A stretch of DNA of 49,158 nucleotides from Defluviitaleaceae bacterium (lineage in GTDB: Bacteria > Bacillota > Clostridia > Lachnospirales > WQUN01). Position 1 is the stretch's first letter, and every line of letters starts with the position of its first letter. The stretch spans positions 1 through 49,158 of the forward strand of contig WQRQ01000007.1 in NCBI GenBank assembly GCA_009786685.1. The letters are read 5' to 3'. This document shows positions 10,021-32,636 of the stretch, piece by piece. The position numbers were made by a program, and so were the translations under genes. The notes under the pieces were generated by a model. The model searched no databases, had not been told where the DNA came from, and saw only the letters and a program-made list of their open reading frames with translations.

Positions 10021-11928
10021 TTACAAAAAGAATCTGAAAACATCAATCAAATCTCCGTAGCTTGTTGTTTTCATAATATTAGAAAACGCCTGACTATTGG
10101 ACACAATTTCCGTAAGAAATTTAAATATATCCTTAAAAAGTCTGCGGTCTTTTTTGTTTAGCGAAATAAGAAAAAAGATGTTTACTTTGTTATCCCCCCA
10201 AGGTATGGGGGTAGGGTTTATAGAAATTGATATATGCGAGGATAAATCCCTGTCGGTGAGGGTGTGTGCTATGGCTATATTGCCGTATGAGCTGGGGGAT
10301 ATACGCTCGTGGGCGTATATTTCTTTTTTAAAGCTGCTGTGTACGTATTTCTTTTTTATCATGTAGTTGCTCATTGTTTCTATGGCGTCCTCCGGTGTTT
10401 TAAACTCGTGACCAAAAAAGCATAAATCTTCTCGTATAAACACCTCGATTTTAGACAGAATATTGTTTTTACGTTTTAATTGTTTAAAATTTTCTATTTT
10501 GCTCATTATTGCCAGTACATCGGAGTCGTTAAAAAATGGGCTGATTACTATATTTGGCAGGCTCAAATTAGTTAGCTCATAGGTAGATACTATCAGGTCT
10601 ATACTATCTAATTCGACTTGCATTTGGTCGTAGCTTGTGTATACGTTTTGGATAAACAGACTGTCATTAAATTTTTGTGTCAGTTTTTTGTATATGTTTT
10701 TTATAAATTTATGATAGTCGGTGGCAAATATCACGCACGAGAGCTTTTCTTGGTTTACAGTTTGCTCCTCTAACATCACGCCTATATGCAGTGCGATGTA
10801 TGCTATCTCATCTTCCGAGAGGTTGTAGCCTGTCCTTTTTATTATAATGCGAGAAACATATACTGCTATCACATGTAAAAACGGGTGCTCTTTTTTTATG
10901 TTTGTAAACTGTCCATTATCCAGAGTTTTGTTTTTGTCCGCTCGTATCAGCATGTTTTTTAGGTGCATGGCAAAGCGAACCATCAGTTTTTCGCACTTTA
11001 GGTCTATGGAGTATGTTTCGTTTACGGAGTCTATGATTTCCATTACTAATTTTTTTACTTTTTTGCCCACCAGCGGCTCTATGTCCTCAAAGTCCGGCAG
11101 GGCGGATTTTTGGGCGATGGCGCGGGTAGACATTAGTATCGACGCCTCCACTATGCCTCCGGCGGTATAGCTGCCCTCGTAGTGTCTCTTTAAGCTGTAG
11201 GATATGTCTTCTACAATTTTTATCAAATCAGGGTCGGAAAACACCTCGTTGCTCTCAGAGTATGCATTGTGGCTATTGCCATGCTCCATACACACGGCAA
11301 GGTGCAACACATAGTTAAGTAGTGAGTATTCGTCTAAAAAATATTCGTATTTTACAAATACATCTATGACTATCTGCCTTATATCAATGAGGTTTACCGA
11401 CTTAAAAAACTGTTGTATGTTTATGAGCGAAAAATTGGAATGCTCCATCTCATCACGGATGAGGGACAATGCAAACTTTTGCCTATCCTTGTCGCTACCT
11501 ATTACAGATATCTTGCCATTGCGTATTTTAAAATAAAGGCCGTAGTTAGAGAGCTCTTTTTTTAGATTAGGAAGCTCGTTTTTAAATGTCGTAGGAGAGA
11601 TACAAAAATAGTCGGCTAAGTCATCCATATCCGGAGACTGGTTAAAAATTATAAGCTGCTCAAAAATATACTTTCTGCGCTCGGCATAGTTTGTTGGTAT
11701 GACAGAGGTGCTATATGCTAGGTTGAATGACGCTACCTCGTCTTCTTTAAGGTAATACCCCTTTACAGAGGAAATTATTATATTGTTTTCGCTGTTGATT
11801 TTTGCAATAAGATAGCGAACCTTGCGCGGGGTGGTGTTTAGCTTTTGCGCGAGGTCTTTGCATGTTGTCCATGTACTTGTTTCTCTTAGCTGTTTTATGA
11901 GCCCAAGGCATTTTTTATCCTCAGTCAT
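10021..11928 (-). CDS. PRD-containing transcriptional regulator (BglG/LicR/MtlR type) of the PTS operon
   Basis: 635 residues. Two N-terminal DNA-binding helix-turn-helix regions (CKDLAQKLNTTPRKVRYLIA and DDLADYFCISPTTFKNELPN) are followed by PRD1 and PRD2 (the latter in GYNLSEDEIAYIALHIGVML). Then come an EIIB-like and an EIIA(fru/mtl)-like domain. The EIIB-like part reads CVIFATDYHKF where a phospho-Cys loop would be, so that site looks lost. The EIIA part keeps a His in NIAIAH. The family activates PTS operons when its PRD and EII-like domains are suitably phosphorylated. The divergent palindrome at 11998-12043 is its most likely operator. It is co-transcribed with ptsI. Confidence 0.9.
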   Translation of the reverse strand: MTEDKKCLGLIKQLRETSTWTTCKDLAQKLNTTPRKVRYLIAKINSENNIIISSVKGYYLKEDEVASFNLAYSTSVIPTNYAERRKYIFEQLIIFNQSPDMDDLADYFCISPTTFKNELPNLKKELSNYGLYFKIRNGKISVIGSDKDRQKFALSLIRDEMEHSNFSLINIQQFFKSVNLIDIRQIVIDVFVKYEYFLDEYSLLNYVLHLAVCMEHGNSHNAYSESNEVFSDPDLIKIVEDISYSLKRHYEGSYTAGGIVEASILMSTRAIAQKSALPDFEDIEPLVGKKVKKLVMEIIDSVNETYSIDLKCEKLMVRFAMHLKNMLIRADKNKTLDNGQFTNIKKEHPFLHVIAVYVSRIIIKRTGYNLSEDEIAYIALHIGVMLEEQTVNQEKLSCVIFATDYHKFIKNIYKKLTQKFNDSLFIQNVYTSYDQMQVELDSIDLIVSTYELTNLSLPNIVISPFFNDSDVLAIMSKIENFKQLKRKNNILSKIEVFIREDLCFFGHEFKTPEDAIETMSNYMIKKKYVHSSFKKEIYAHERISPSSYGNIAIAHTLTDRDLSSHISISINPTPIPWGDNKVNIFFLISLNKKDRRLFKDIFKFLTEIVSNSQAFSNIMKTTSYGDLIDVFRFFL

Positions 11929-27457: not shown

Positions 27458-28378
27458 TCACCCCTCGAATTTTAATGTTTTTATCATGCGGTCTTTTCCT
27501 GCTTTTGTTGCGGGGAAGATTTTTGTTGCGTTTGCGAGGTAATTGTACGGGTCGGGCAGGGAAGGGCTGTAATGCGTAAGCCAAAGCTCGCGTGCATTTG
27601 CTTTTTTTGCAAGCTCGGCTGCTTCGCGAAAAATCATGTGCTTGCGTTTTGCGGCTTTTTCTTGAAGGTCGTCCTCGCCGTACAGGCCTTCGCAGATAAA
27701 CAGGTCGGCGTTTTCCGCAAAGGCGGGCAATGCCGCCGTTGGGCGGGTATCCGTGCAAAACACGACCTTTAAACCCTTGCGCGGCGCACCCATTACCATG
27801 TCGCTTGTAAAGGTTTTATCATTATATACGATTTTTTTGTCATTTTGTTTTTGCAATTCTCCCCAGAATTTTACGGGGATTTCCAGCTCGCTTGCGCGGT
27901 GCGGGTCAAACTTGCCGCGACGCAATAAATCCACGCTGTATGCAAAGCATGGCGTGCGGTGGTTAACGGGCAGGGCTTTTAAAATCAGCATTTCGTCGGG
28001 GGAGTAGCTATGCTCGGTATTTGTTTCCCATTCCATAAATTCTATGGGAAAGGGAAGGTCGCGGGCGATTACGCACAGGCTGTTTACGACGGAAGCGAGA
28101 CCTTGCGGGCCAATGAGCGTTAGCGGCTCGGTGCGGTCGGCATTTGCCATGGTAAGCAAAAGCCCCGGCAAGCCCGAAATATGGTCGCCATGAAAATGCG
28201 TAAAGCAAATAATATCAATCTGTTTAAACCCCCAGCCCAAAAGCCGCAGGCTTACCTGCGTGCCTTCTCCGCAGTCGAATAAAATAAGGCTGCCGTTTAC
28301 GCGGCATAACATAGAGGACAAAAAACGATTTGGCAAGGGCATCATTCCGCCCGTGCCTACGAGTGCAATATCAATCAT
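27458..28378 (-). CDS. rnz: Ribonuclease Z
   Basis: 306 residues with the metallo-beta-lactamase fold. Catalytic zinc motif HFHGDH (His61, His63, Asp65, His66), N-terminal GTGGMMPLPNRFLSS, FDCGEGTQ, C-terminal FCTDTRP and LTHYSPS are RNase Z landmarks. It cuts the 3' trailer of tRNA precursors, which matters here because the only tRNA in the window lacks encoded CCA. It is 21 nt after the PIN toxin gene and 4 nt before the sigma gene. Confidence 0.95.
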   Translation of the reverse strand: MIDIALVGTGGMMPLPNRFLSSMLCRVNGSLILFDCGEGTQVSLRLLGWGFKQIDIICFTHFHGDHISGLPGLLLTMANADRTEPLTLIGPQGLASVVNSLCVIARDLPFPIEFMEWETNTEHSYSPDEMLILKALPVNHRTPCFAYSVDLLRRGKFDPHRASELEIPVKFWGELQKQNDKKIVYNDKTFTSDMVMGAPRKGLKVVFCTDTRPTAALPAFAENADLFICEGLYGEDDLQEKAAKRKHMIFREAAELAKKANARELWLTHYSPSLPDPYNYLANATKIFPATKAGKDRMIKTLKFEG

Positions 28379-28399
28379 CTTAAACTATGCTCCCTGTCC

Positions 28400-28816
28400 C
28401 TAGCGTATCCACGCAAAATTTATTTTTTCTTTGCCCTCGATAACATCAAATTCGTGGTGGTCGGATGTCAGAAGCGACCCGTTAGAGACGATAGCCTGTG
28501 CCAATGCGAAGGAATCTGCAAGTGATATTTTGTATGTTATTTTTAGCCGCCCTGCTTCTTTAAACACTTCATCGGAAAGCTCATGGAATATTTGGATGGG
28601 TAGACGCTTAACATCATTATAAAAGGTATCCGCATACATGATGCCGTAAGCGCGGAGTAAGTCATAGTAAACTTCCAGCAGGTTTACCTTGTTTATGGCA
28701 AGTGTTACTTTGCCCTCGGCGGCTTTTTCATATATTGCTTCTACCATGTCTGCGCCTTTTTCGTCTGCTAAGACGGCAAGCATAGCGCAGGCGTCCAAAA
28801 TGTATATCGATGTCAT
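28400..28816 (-). CDS. PIN-domain ribonuclease toxin (VapC-like)
   Basis: 138 residues. The acidic PIN residues are present: Asp8 (YILDACAML), Glu in NLLEVYYDLL (~residue 48), Asp in ISLADSFALA (~100) and Asp in LTSDHHEFD. It is expected to cleave RNA with Mg2+ when free of its antitoxin. The start overlaps the stop of the upstream antitoxin frame by 4 nt (ATGA), the usual VapBC arrangement. It is followed 21 nt later by RNase Z. Confidence 0.88.
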   Translation of the reverse strand: MTSIYILDACAMLAVLADEKGADMVEAIYEKAAEGKVTLAINKVNLLEVYYDLLRAYGIMYADTFYNDVKRLPIQIFHELSDEVFKEAGRLKITYKISLADSFALAQAIVSNGSLLTSDHHEFDVIEGKEKINFAWIR

Positions 28817-28983
28817 TGCTCAAGCTTCTTTTCTTCTTGTTTTCGTGCAATAAATTTATCAGAAGAAATTTTGCCGTCGGCAAACATCCCGCGCAAGGGG
28901 CAGCCTTTTTTTGTTTCGGAAATAGGAGCAAGTCGAATTTCTCTTTCTGCTTCGTGCACTTTTACTTGCATTGCTTCTACCAT
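28813..28983 (-). CDS. Antitoxin for the PIN toxin, in frame with the cotH 3' end
   Basis: 56 residues: MVEAMQVKVHEAEREIRLAP then ISETKKGCPLRGMFADGKIS, ending in a basic/acidic tail. The ATG at 28983 lies 8 nt after GGAG inside the long cotH frame. The sequence resembles the small antitoxins that precede PIN toxins in clostridia, and the ATGA overlap with the toxin supports this. There is no stop codon between cotH and this start, so it is also the C-terminal 56 residues of the cotH product as read. Confidence 0.75.
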   Translation of the reverse strand: MVEAMQVKVHEAEREIRLAPISETKKGCPLRGMFADGKISSDKFIARKQEEKKLEQ

Positions 28984-31242
28984 AAATATCACTCCATCTT
29001 GGTTAATAATCACACTGTCTAAAATATTGCCATCCTCGTCGGAAAGGAAAACGCGGCGGTTTTCGCGGATATTAAAATCCAAGCGGTAGCGGAAGATATC
29101 TTCCTGCCCGCGGCTGTCCCGTCCTGCAAAGTAGAATGTTCCGCCGGGCTCAAGGGTAATGGCCGGCACAGGGAAGCGTTGCAGATTATCAAGTCTGTTG
29201 CTTAGGAAGAAACCCTCTGTACGCAACGGCTCGTAGGAACTGTTTGTTATACCTATGCCGTTGCCTCTTTCTGTGACGGAGGCGTAGTGAATCATAAGCG
29301 GCGGAAGGTCGGGGACGGTTACGAGGGTGAGCGTTACCACGCCGTCTACCGCGTCGGCTACCGTCACCTTTGTCGTTTTGGTCGAAGCATTCACGCCGTT
29401 AATTTCCCAGTGAGAAAAGGCGGTATTTGGAGGCAAAACGGGTGTCACGGGGATGGTCAAATGCGCAAAATAACGCGAAGATGTCGCCTGTACCGAGCCG
29501 ATGATTGCCTCGCCGCCGAGTACCCGCACCTCGAACATTTCGCTGTCCTCGTCAAAGTCGAATTTTTGTGCCAGGCTTCTGTTGATAAAGATATGCCTGC
29601 GCTCGGCAAAATCCAGCGTGCGGTTGCGGTAGTTGCCTATGCTGTACCAGCCTACCCAGTGGTTGAGTAGCTCTGCTTCAATTGTGTGGTTCATCTCGTT
29701 GTGGGCTTCTTCGAATAGGTTGTCAACGATTTCGCTTACGATTTCGTAGTTTACTACGTTGGCGGCTATGTCATTCATCATCATTGTAAAAAGCTCGGCC
29801 ATGTCTTGGCGTTGCAGGATGGTGCGGATTAGCTGCCCCGCGTAGTTGTCCTGCGTTAGTACATGTTGAAAAATGGGGCGGCGATAGTTTTGCCCAAACA
29901 GCCCAAAGGTTTGGTCGAGGTCGAAGATGGCATATCTCCAGCGGCCGTCCAGCTCCGGTGCCATGCCCGGGAATGGCTCGCCCGTGTAACGCCAACGGCG
30001 CAGATTATTATGCGGCCAGTCCGCGTTAGCCACAAAAATTTGGAAGGCGTAGTACCATAGTAGATTTTCGACATCTACGATTTCGTTTAGCAGGGCAAAC
30101 TCCGCGTCGTCGGTAAGGTCGCGCCATGCAAAGTAGTTTTTGTAGGTTAGCTCTTCTTCCAGTTCTTCCGTAGTGTTTCTAAACCACCACTCGCCTCGGC
30201 TTACCACGTCGAAATCGCGGGTGGGGGTGTTGTATAATTCTTGCAGATAATGCGCGTCAAAGCGTGTTTGCAGCCACATAAAGCCATAGTAGTTTCCGTT
30301 TATGAATAACGCCGCGCCCCGCGCAGGGGTTACGTCCATAAAGCCTGCGTTGCGGGCAAGGATGGAGCCAAGCTCGTTACGCATAATGCCGTGGTTACGG
30401 TCGTTACCGCCGTTGCGAAGGATTAGTGTATTGTACGCGGTGATTGGTGTGGCAAAATCGAAGGAATCCTGTATAACATCGCCGGGGAAAAATTGGTAGT
30501 GGAATCGACCCGCGTGTGGGCTGTACTCGCGGCGGGCAATAAGCCGCAGCGACCTAACGCGCTCGGCACGCGACCACGAGCCAAAAACCCGCACTCCCGC
30601 GTCTTGCTGCAAAACGCGTTCGCCCTCGGGGGTAAAGACTTCTACGTGGACGAGGCGTTCCCAGTCGCGGCCGCGTTGATTCCAGTTTGCGGGCGTCATT
30701 GGATTAATGTGCGCGTCGGGATATTCGTCCAAAAAATCTCTGCGGACAACGCCGTTTACGAGGATTCCTTCATAGAAGCAATACAAATTATCATGGTCGG
30801 TGGAAAGCGAAAAAACCAAAACATCAAAACGGTCGTCAATCCCTGCGTTTAGAAAAAATGTGTGAGTAATCGGCTCGGTTGTTTCTTCGTCGTATACGGC
30901 AATCGCTCGTACCACTGCCACATCCGGGCGAGAGCTTAGCGTAAAATCTATCGGGTTTGCAAAAACTGCGGAATAAGTTGTCGGCAACGCACCATCTAGT
31001 GTATAATGAATCACGGCATCAGGATTATTGGTTAAAATCTGAACACTAACGCCCTGTGGGAAGAAATGCCCTTCTTCGGATAAATACACGATAAGCGGCT
31101 CGTTTTCGCGCTCTTCTGCGGCCTCGGTAACTTCGTCGTTTATTGTTTCCGGCGTAACCAGTGCTGCGGGGCTGGAATGCATAAAAACTACAGTCACGAT
31201 TAAAACCGCTACGGCTAAGATTAGAACGAGGATTCTTTTCAT
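28813..31242 (-). CDS. CotH kinase family exported protein, fused at its end to an antitoxin
   Basis: 809 residues. N-terminal signal/anchor (ILVLILAVAVLIVTVVFM), a beta domain with FPQGVSVQILTNN and HYTLDGALPT (chitobiase-C-like), then the CotH kinase domain with ILRNGGNDRN, LFINGNYYGFMWLQTRFDAH and WRYAIFDLDQTFG, in which Asp residues would bind metal. A C-terminal LTD (lamin-tail-like) domain ends at VIINQ. CotH kinases phosphorylate spore-coat or secreted proteins; in this type of cluster it is extracytoplasmic. The stop codon is missing and the frame runs into the VapB-like antitoxin. Divergent from the VTC gene. Confidence 0.88.
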   Translation of the reverse strand: MKRILVLILAVAVLIVTVVFMHSSPAALVTPETINDEVTEAAEERENEPLIVYLSEEGHFFPQGVSVQILTNNPDAVIHYTLDGALPTTYSAVFANPIDFTLSSRPDVAVVRAIAVYDEETTEPITHTFFLNAGIDDRFDVLVFSLSTDHDNLYCFYEGILVNGVVRRDFLDEYPDAHINPMTPANWNQRGRDWERLVHVEVFTPEGERVLQQDAGVRVFGSWSRAERVRSLRLIARREYSPHAGRFHYQFFPGDVIQDSFDFATPITAYNTLILRNGGNDRNHGIMRNELGSILARNAGFMDVTPARGAALFINGNYYGFMWLQTRFDAHYLQELYNTPTRDFDVVSRGEWWFRNTTEELEEELTYKNYFAWRDLTDDAEFALLNEIVDVENLLWYYAFQIFVANADWPHNNLRRWRYTGEPFPGMAPELDGRWRYAIFDLDQTFGLFGQNYRRPIFQHVLTQDNYAGQLIRTILQRQDMAELFTMMMNDIAANVVNYEIVSEIVDNLFEEAHNEMNHTIEAELLNHWVGWYSIGNYRNRTLDFAERRHIFINRSLAQKFDFDEDSEMFEVRVLGGEAIIGSVQATSSRYFAHLTIPVTPVLPPNTAFSHWEINGVNASTKTTKVTVADAVDGVVTLTLVTVPDLPPLMIHYASVTERGNGIGITNSSYEPLRTEGFFLSNRLDNLQRFPVPAITLEPGGTFYFAGRDSRGQEDIFRYRLDFNIRENRRVFLSDEDGNILDSVIINQDGVIFMVEAMQVKVHEAEREIRLAPISETKKGCPLRGMFADGKISSDKFIARKQEEKKLEQ

Positions 31243-31285: not shown

Positions 31286-31978
31286 TTGCGATACAGAAAC
31301 GAAAACAAATACTTTATCGACGAATGTACGGCGGAGATATTACGCGCCCGCGCCGCAGGCATTATGAAACCCGACGAAAACGGCGGCTCGTACACCGTGC
31401 ATAATTTGTATCTCGATGACAGGTACGATAGCTGTTACTACGGAAAATACATGGGGCGGCTGGAGCGCAACAAATACCGCCTGCGGTATTACAACGGCGA
31501 CAAGTCATTTATTCGCCTTGAGAGAAAGCACAAGGAAGGCAATCTCTCTTACAAAGATACCATGACAATATCCAATGAGCAATACGAAATGATAAAGTGC
31601 GGCAATTTAGATTTTATTTTAAAGGAAGAAGCACCGCTTTGGCAAACGCTCGCGACAGTGTACAGGCTGAAGGGTTTGCGCCCTACAGCCGTATTCGCGT
31701 ATAAGCGAAGAGCATTTGTGTACGAGCCGGGAGATGTGCGGTTTACCTTCGACAGCCCACCCTTCCAAACGGGCGAAACTCTGCCCTTTCACCACGAACC
31801 ACTTAAAATGACCTACGGCAAAGCTGCTTACAGCCCAATGCTGCTGGAAGTAAAATACAGCCGCTTTTTGCCTGAAATTATAAAACGCCTGCTAAACGGC
31901 CTACCGTTGGCACGCACAGATATGTCAAAATACTGCGTTGTACGCGAAAAAGGAGTTTTACCTCATGGGGAGATTTGA
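31286..31978 (+). CDS. VTC-domain polyphosphate polymerase-like protein
   Basis: 230 residues from TTG 31286; no in-frame ATG lies upstream, and the ribosome site is weak. RNENKYFID is the N-terminal VTC signature, followed by NLYLDDRYDSCYYGKYMGRL, ERNKYRLRYY, FIRLERKHKEG and the C-terminal LLEVKYSRFLPEI. These basic and acidic residues line the tunnel where yeast Vtc4 makes polyphosphate from ATP. Family members in bacteria often pair with DUF4956 and CotH genes, as here. It overlaps the DUF4956 gene by 14 nt. Confidence 0.9.
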   Translation: MRYRNENKYFIDECTAEILRARAAGIMKPDENGGSYTVHNLYLDDRYDSCYYGKYMGRLERNKYRLRYYNGDKSFIRLERKHKEGNLSYKDTMTISNEQYEMIKCGNLDFILKEEAPLWQTLATVYRLKGLRPTAVFAYKRRAFVYEPGDVRFTFDSPPFQTGETLPFHHEPLKMTYGKAAYSPMLLEVKYSRFLPEIIKRLLNGLPLARTDMSKYCVVREKGVLPHGEI

Positions 31979-32636
31979 TTTTTTACGGGACATACTTGTA
32001 AACCCGCAGCTTGTTGTATTGGAAGAATTACGACCGGAAAATCTATTGGCGGTGCTTGGCGTCGCGGCGTTTTGTGGGTTTGTTATCTTTCTTGTCTATC
32101 GGTTTTTTAACCGAGGTGTGCTTTACAGCGAAAATTTTAACTTGCTTATTTTAATGATTACCATAGTGACAGCCTTTATTATTATCACAATCGGTACTAA
32201 CCTTGTGCTTACACTGGGCATGGTCGGCGCGCTTTCTATTGTGCGGTTTAGGGCGGCCGTTAAGGACCCGCTGGATGTTGGCTTTCTTTTTTGGGGCGTT
32301 GCGGCGGGGCTTACTGCGGGTGCGAGATTGTTTTCCGTCGCGCTCATAGGCACGGCCTTTATTGCGATTTTGTATATCGTGTTTACGATGGTAAGGTTTG
32401 ACAAACGGGCGTTTTTGCTAATCGTAAGATACGCAAACGACGCAGAAGAAGCCGTAACCGAGCAACTGAAAAAAATCCGCCATAAGCTGAAAAATAAAAC
32501 CATAGGCGCAGGCTATACCGAGCTTACAATGGAAGTTAAAGTAAAAGGCAACAACACGGATTTTATGGAGCCGCTTAAACAAACTGAGCATGTAGATAAT
32601 GTTGTGCTGGTGGAATATACGGGGGATTATGCGTAA
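31965..32636 (+). CDS. DUF4956 membrane protein
   Basis: 223 residues from ATG 31965, 8 nt after AAAAAGGAGTT, inside the end of the VTC gene. Three to four hydrophobic segments: LLAVLGVAAFCGFVIFLVYR, LNLLILMITIVTAFIIITIG and the region ending FIAILYIVF. The central ALSIVRFRAAVKDPLDVGFL is the DUF4956 hallmark. A cytoplasmic tail of ~90 residues has two ferredoxin-like strands. Presumed membrane partner of the VTC and CotH proteins. Followed by a terminator. Confidence 0.9.
   Translation: MGRFDFLRDILVNPQLVVLEELRPENLLAVLGVAAFCGFVIFLVYRFFNRGVLYSENFNLLILMITIVTAFIIITIGTNLVLTLGMVGALSIVRFRAAVKDPLDVGFLFWGVAAGLTAGARLFSVALIGTAFIAILYIVFTMVRFDKRAFLLIVRYANDAEEAVTEQLKKIRHKLKNKTIGAGYTELTMEVKVKGNNTDFMEPLKQTEHVDNVVLVEYTGDYA

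Follow-up and report, generated by a model that had tools for sequence, protein, structure and literature searches.

A VapBC-like toxin-antitoxin (TA) module is, judged from gene order in relatives, a gain of the lineage analysed here, placed between cotH and rnz, and its antitoxin now shares one reading frame with cotH (throughout, the window is the whole 49,158-nt stretch of DNA that we analysed). Homology on either side of the joint indicates that the resulting fusion is an almost complete CotH followed by an antitoxin shortened at its front. We regard the locus as a real but one-off gene-insertion accident; it varies what TA modules are known to do and is no new system. Our working explanation, taken as a whole and given a probability of about 0.6, runs from the gain of the module through the loss of the cotH stop and of the antitoxin front to an internal translation start, neutralisation of the toxin and expression driven by cotH. 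The features on which this reading draws are collected in Table 1.

Table 1. Features of the cotH-TA-rnz region, in window coordinates.
Feature	Position	Strand	Basis or remark
rnz (ribonuclease Z-like), 3' neighbour	27458..28378	-	overlaps cotH end directly in G023 and G025
21-nt spacer with AGGGAG before rnz	28379..28399	-	resembles last bases of G023 cotH
PIN-domain toxin, VapC-like, 138 aa	28400..28816	-	Pfam PIN, E 8e-13; conserved acidic residues intact
ATGA overlap, antitoxin stop / PIN start	28813..28816	-	sequence
Antitoxin lacking its N-terminal front; 56 aa counted from ATG 28983	28813..28983	-	HMM match and alignment A1; in frame with cotH
Junction, ~7 codons (NQDGVIF)	28984..29004	-	no stop codon; may stem from the CotH end, a module leader or the antitoxin
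GGAG, Shine-Dalgarno-like	28992..28995	-	8-nt spacer to ATG 28983
cotH proper	29005..31242	-	Pfam; C-termini of orthologues, which match up to about residue 746

Gene order between cotH and rnz

What had been predicted was a TA module inserted at the end of cotH, and the relatives G023 and G025, which belong to the window's genus, bear this out by keeping the empty site, with cotH overlapping rnz. In G023, which is the MAG Defluviitaleaceae bacterium Nt197P1bin3 and the nearest relative that has this cotH, a cotH with 74% identity to the window CotH ends at 748 aa with an 8-nt overlap with the rnz start and no TA genes. G025, from the same genus, possesses a shorter cotH that overlaps rnz as in G023, again with no TA module. 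Across the 30 rnz loci that were read in the family, cotH stood in front of rnz in only 3 (window, G023 and G025), and TA genes lay between the two in the window only. Given the empty cotH-rnz site in both G023 and G025, parsimony points to the gain of ~600 bp with the TA pair in the window lineage, and because the spacer ahead of rnz resembles the end of the G023 cotH, the right-hand edge of the insertion would lie just behind the PIN stop. Base composition changes across the same boundaries, the TA insert having a GC content of 41-43% and a GC3 of 32-47%, whereas cotH and rnz have 50-51% and 56-59%, respectively. The locus represents a recent TA insertion that was caught while the empty site is still present in a close relative. 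The sample code Nt197 belongs to the humus-feeding termite Neocapritermes taracua (PMC7024585), and, judging from its relative G023, the uncultured window bacterium probably came from a termite gut too.

Evaluating the CotH part itself revealed an N-terminal hydrophobic, signal- or anchor-like segment, a chitobiase-C-like/Fn3-associated domain, a kinase-like domain and a weak lamin-tail-like C-terminal domain, with residues 217-520 matching the Pfam CotH family (PF08757) at E 1.4e-20 and 74.5 bits versus a gathering cut-off of 23.8. The gene is like others of the CotH kinase family in this domain and in its CYTH/VTC-like and conserved membrane-protein neighbours (window, G023 and partly G022), but differs from them in carrying an extra C-terminal tail of ~60 residues that derives from the antitoxin. 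A long tail as a common trait of CotH relatives was considered and rejected, as all long orthologues end within a few residues of the homology end. Relatives having a long CotH tail and no toxin gene, which had been named beforehand as speaking against an insertion, did not emerge when cotH genes were compared, and indeed no relative has the tail. Two genes that we named by eye, one CYTH/VTC-like and one for a membrane protein, lie upstream at 31286-32636 (+) and run divergently from cotH. G023 retains the pair, and in G022 the VTC-like gene likewise adjoins cotH, such that this CotH neighbourhood is conserved.

At the other end of the insert, the PIN gene is, as its alignment reads, intact and full length with its conserved acidic residues: all 31 full-length family rows carry the same D8, E48, D101 and D119, and the order of antitoxin followed by PIN is also found in relatives. 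The predicted overlap of the antitoxin and PIN genes by ATGA was seen as well. A small antitoxin directly before a PIN toxin, a 4-nt ATGA overlap and four conserved acidic residues are what the module has in common with VapBC-type (PIN) type II TA systems, whereas its antitoxin departs from them in having no above-cut-off match in Pfam or NCBIfam, in lacking the N-terminal segment and in being in frame with an upstream gene. It is improbable that the module is simply decaying, with its antitoxin made only as a CotH fusion or not at all, its PIN gene silent or weak and the fusion a functionless accident, because no conserved acidic residue is missing from the full-length PIN frame, the antitoxin C-terminus is conserved and there would be selection against an active toxin that has no antitoxin. 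What speaks for decay are the broken PIN genes of related copies in G008 and G020, along with the lost antitoxin N-terminus and a promoter of its own that is not apparent.

The junction and the shared frame

A single frame, 28813-31242 (-), runs open over 809 aa without an internal stop, first through CotH and then through the VapB-like antitoxin, in agreement with the original prediction that the cotH frame meets no stop before the antitoxin ATG at 28983. The GGAG ahead of this ATG, and the position of the ATG in the cotH frame, were found as described, and a second in-frame ATG follows at 28971. As GGAG-type motifs occur at 2 of the 16 in-frame ATGs of the ORF, finding GGAG close to one of them is mildly informative. 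Protein comparison revealed that CotH homology stops near residue 746 and that antitoxin homology starts near residues 751-757 in one frame, with DNA homology to the nearest antitoxin starting at 28967. Both remaining frames contain several stops each at the junction, and with these closed, a shared open frame would be a roughly 1-in-3 event after loss of the cotH stop. That the CotH end meets the antitoxin start in one frame is, on these protein matches, far from chance.

A sequencing or assembly error at the junction, masking an indel or a stop, is very improbable, as homology on both sides reaches the junction in the same frame such that an indel is not needed, and as an error would not bring back the missing antitoxin N-terminus, for which no frame has space. 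Against this, one has to set that the source is a draft metagenome-type assembly of 195 contigs representing one genome, that a single substitution would be enough to mask a stop, and that a search for a second assembly of the species found none. A scan of genome contigs returned the G023 locus as its sole result, no match to the exact junction was found in viral contigs, and a search of the literature on CotH-antitoxin fusions found no relevant report.

The antitoxin front and the age of its loss

The window antitoxin matched its family profile at E 2.0e-21 over positions 16-74 of 74, and across searches this match began at position 14-19. In alignment A1, 18 relatives besides the window copy start ~22 residues ahead of a KVKVRE-like motif and possess a common front, M-x(9)-LPExL. 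This segment is absent from the window antitoxin, which lacks the first 15-18 residues and has a conserved C-terminal part, and the codons at the expected antitoxin front are still recognisable CotH (FLSDEDGNILDSVII). A full-length antitoxin hidden in another frame was rejected, with no LPExL-like segment elsewhere and no room. The original prediction had implied a whole antitoxin gene that kept the start and ribosome site it came with, a view that does not hold given the absence of residues common to the aligned relatives. With the front missing, ATG 28983 would be an interior or new start and its GGAG would not be the family's own, unless the short form predates the insertion.

The search for the family covered 392 genomes of the order and gave 60 matches in 28 of them, mostly from the window's own family, and the window copy was the sole match within a long coding frame. 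We also rejected the idea that antitoxins of the A1 family are often fused to upstream genes, as the frames around the other matches are 32-134 aa long, save for one of 216 aa (G022:C125), which looks merely like an open stretch before a normal antitoxin whose N-terminus differs. Neither Pfam nor NCBIfam recognised an N-terminal DNA-binding domain of the VapB/MazE type in the window antitoxin, and across the family there was one weak MazE match (E 0.036). Searches by sequence found no solved relative of either the antitoxin or the toxin, and PADLOC returned no match.

A different history, in which the module arrived with an antitoxin that was already short and had its own GGAG and ATG, and in which the cotH stop alone was lost (e.g., when one base of codon 748, CAA, changed), is rather unlikely, though it carries some weight. 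A stand-alone short antitoxin (MMGKVKVREENK...) was found in G023 (L083; G023:C127 ~11048-11241, L083 1249-1442); its ATG is preceded by GGGAG and an intact PIN gene follows, and short forms thus exist outside any fusion. The window GGAG with its 8-nt spacer is moreover a good ribosome site, codon 748 is where the G022 CotH ends, and a clade shared by the window PIN and L083 was not rejected by an AU test (p 0.168). However, the antitoxins closest to the window copy, L018 and L064, are long forms (with GMFADGKISS in common), and the PIN tree places the window with G020:C39 (L064; long antitoxin) at a support of 86/87 and not with L083. Because the window PIN groups with this long-antitoxin module, the shortening looks recent, and we favor a module that lost its antitoxin front at the cotH junction; on this tree, the shortening was probably independent as well as recent. 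By eye, a TATAAT-like box lies upstream of L083.

Another arrangement was seen in G022:C125 (L082 1077-1727), where the same antitoxin C-terminal motif comes after a different N-terminus (MQAYEGYVEGGQFYPTG...) and before a family PIN toxin, a possible exchange of the antitoxin N-terminus. We infer from this that the C-terminal part of the antitoxin seems to be a stable unit to which the N-terminus is exchangeable. In L018/L062 (G008:C131) and L064 (G020:C39), the antitoxin is kept and the PIN genes are broken or truncated; as L018 and L064 are near relatives in decay, the window copy may be heading for loss as well.

Expression of the module and comparison with known systems

In our preferred explanation, the cotH stop and the first 15-18 antitoxin codons would have been lost at the junction, either in the course of the insertion or afterwards, through a small deletion or a stop mutation, and with its own stop gone the cotH frame now ends at the antitoxin stop. 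The cotH, antitoxin, PIN and rnz genes are on the same strand with short spacers, no promoter-like match was found on the minus strand from the cotH start to the PIN end, and the four genes probably make up one transcript. On this transcript, ribosomes would start at ATG 28983, or possibly at 28971, within the cotH frame and produce a short cytoplasmic antitoxin with the family-conserved C-terminal part, ATGA coupling would allow the PIN toxin to be translated, and the short antitoxin is predicted to neutralise that toxin. In VapB/MazE-type antitoxins, the DNA-binding and dimer parts are usually N-terminal. As the lost front is the usual place for DNA binding, autoregulation is probably gone and expression would follow that of cotH.

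Readthrough by CotH ribosomes would add the antitoxin-derived tail to CotH as a by-product that is probably exported and presumably plays no role in neutralisation. If the CotH N-terminus acts as a signal or anchor, the readthrough product would be exported, which would put its tail out of reach of the toxin. It is hardly credible that the readthrough product is itself put to use, with the antitoxin tail of CotH coupling the toxin to what becomes of an exported protein; were it true, toxin bound before export, or competing translation starts, would let toxin release sense CotH synthesis or secretion.

Parts of this arrangement coincide with known systems. In E. coli, yafNO is inserted behind dinB and is under the dinB promoter (PMC7167474), such that there, as is presumed for the window, a TA pair directly behind a host gene is transcribed with that gene; the E. 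coli genes are separate, whereas in the window the host frame continues through the antitoxin. Similarly, the PaaA2 antitoxin is without a DNA-binding motif and its control has been taken over by its surroundings (PMC8630535). The paaR2-paaA2-parE2 system, from a cryptic prophage of E. coli O157, resembles the window module in having an antitoxin without a detectable DNA-binding motif and in control by its surroundings, but differs in its toxin family, its separate regulator gene and the lack of an exported-protein fusion. The window locus would provide a concrete route by which an antitoxin sheds its N-terminal segment together with its own control, joins a host operon and yields a chimeric exported protein, as well as a natural case for whether a C-terminal antitoxin fragment of 52-56 residues suffices to restrain a PIN toxin.

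The window's own genome holds a second, full-length TA module of the family (L003; G000:C102 8812-9446), which immediately follows a gene that looks GrpB-like by eye, and one genome carries several tandem copies of the TA module on two short contigs (L057 and L044; G037:C92 and G037:C56).
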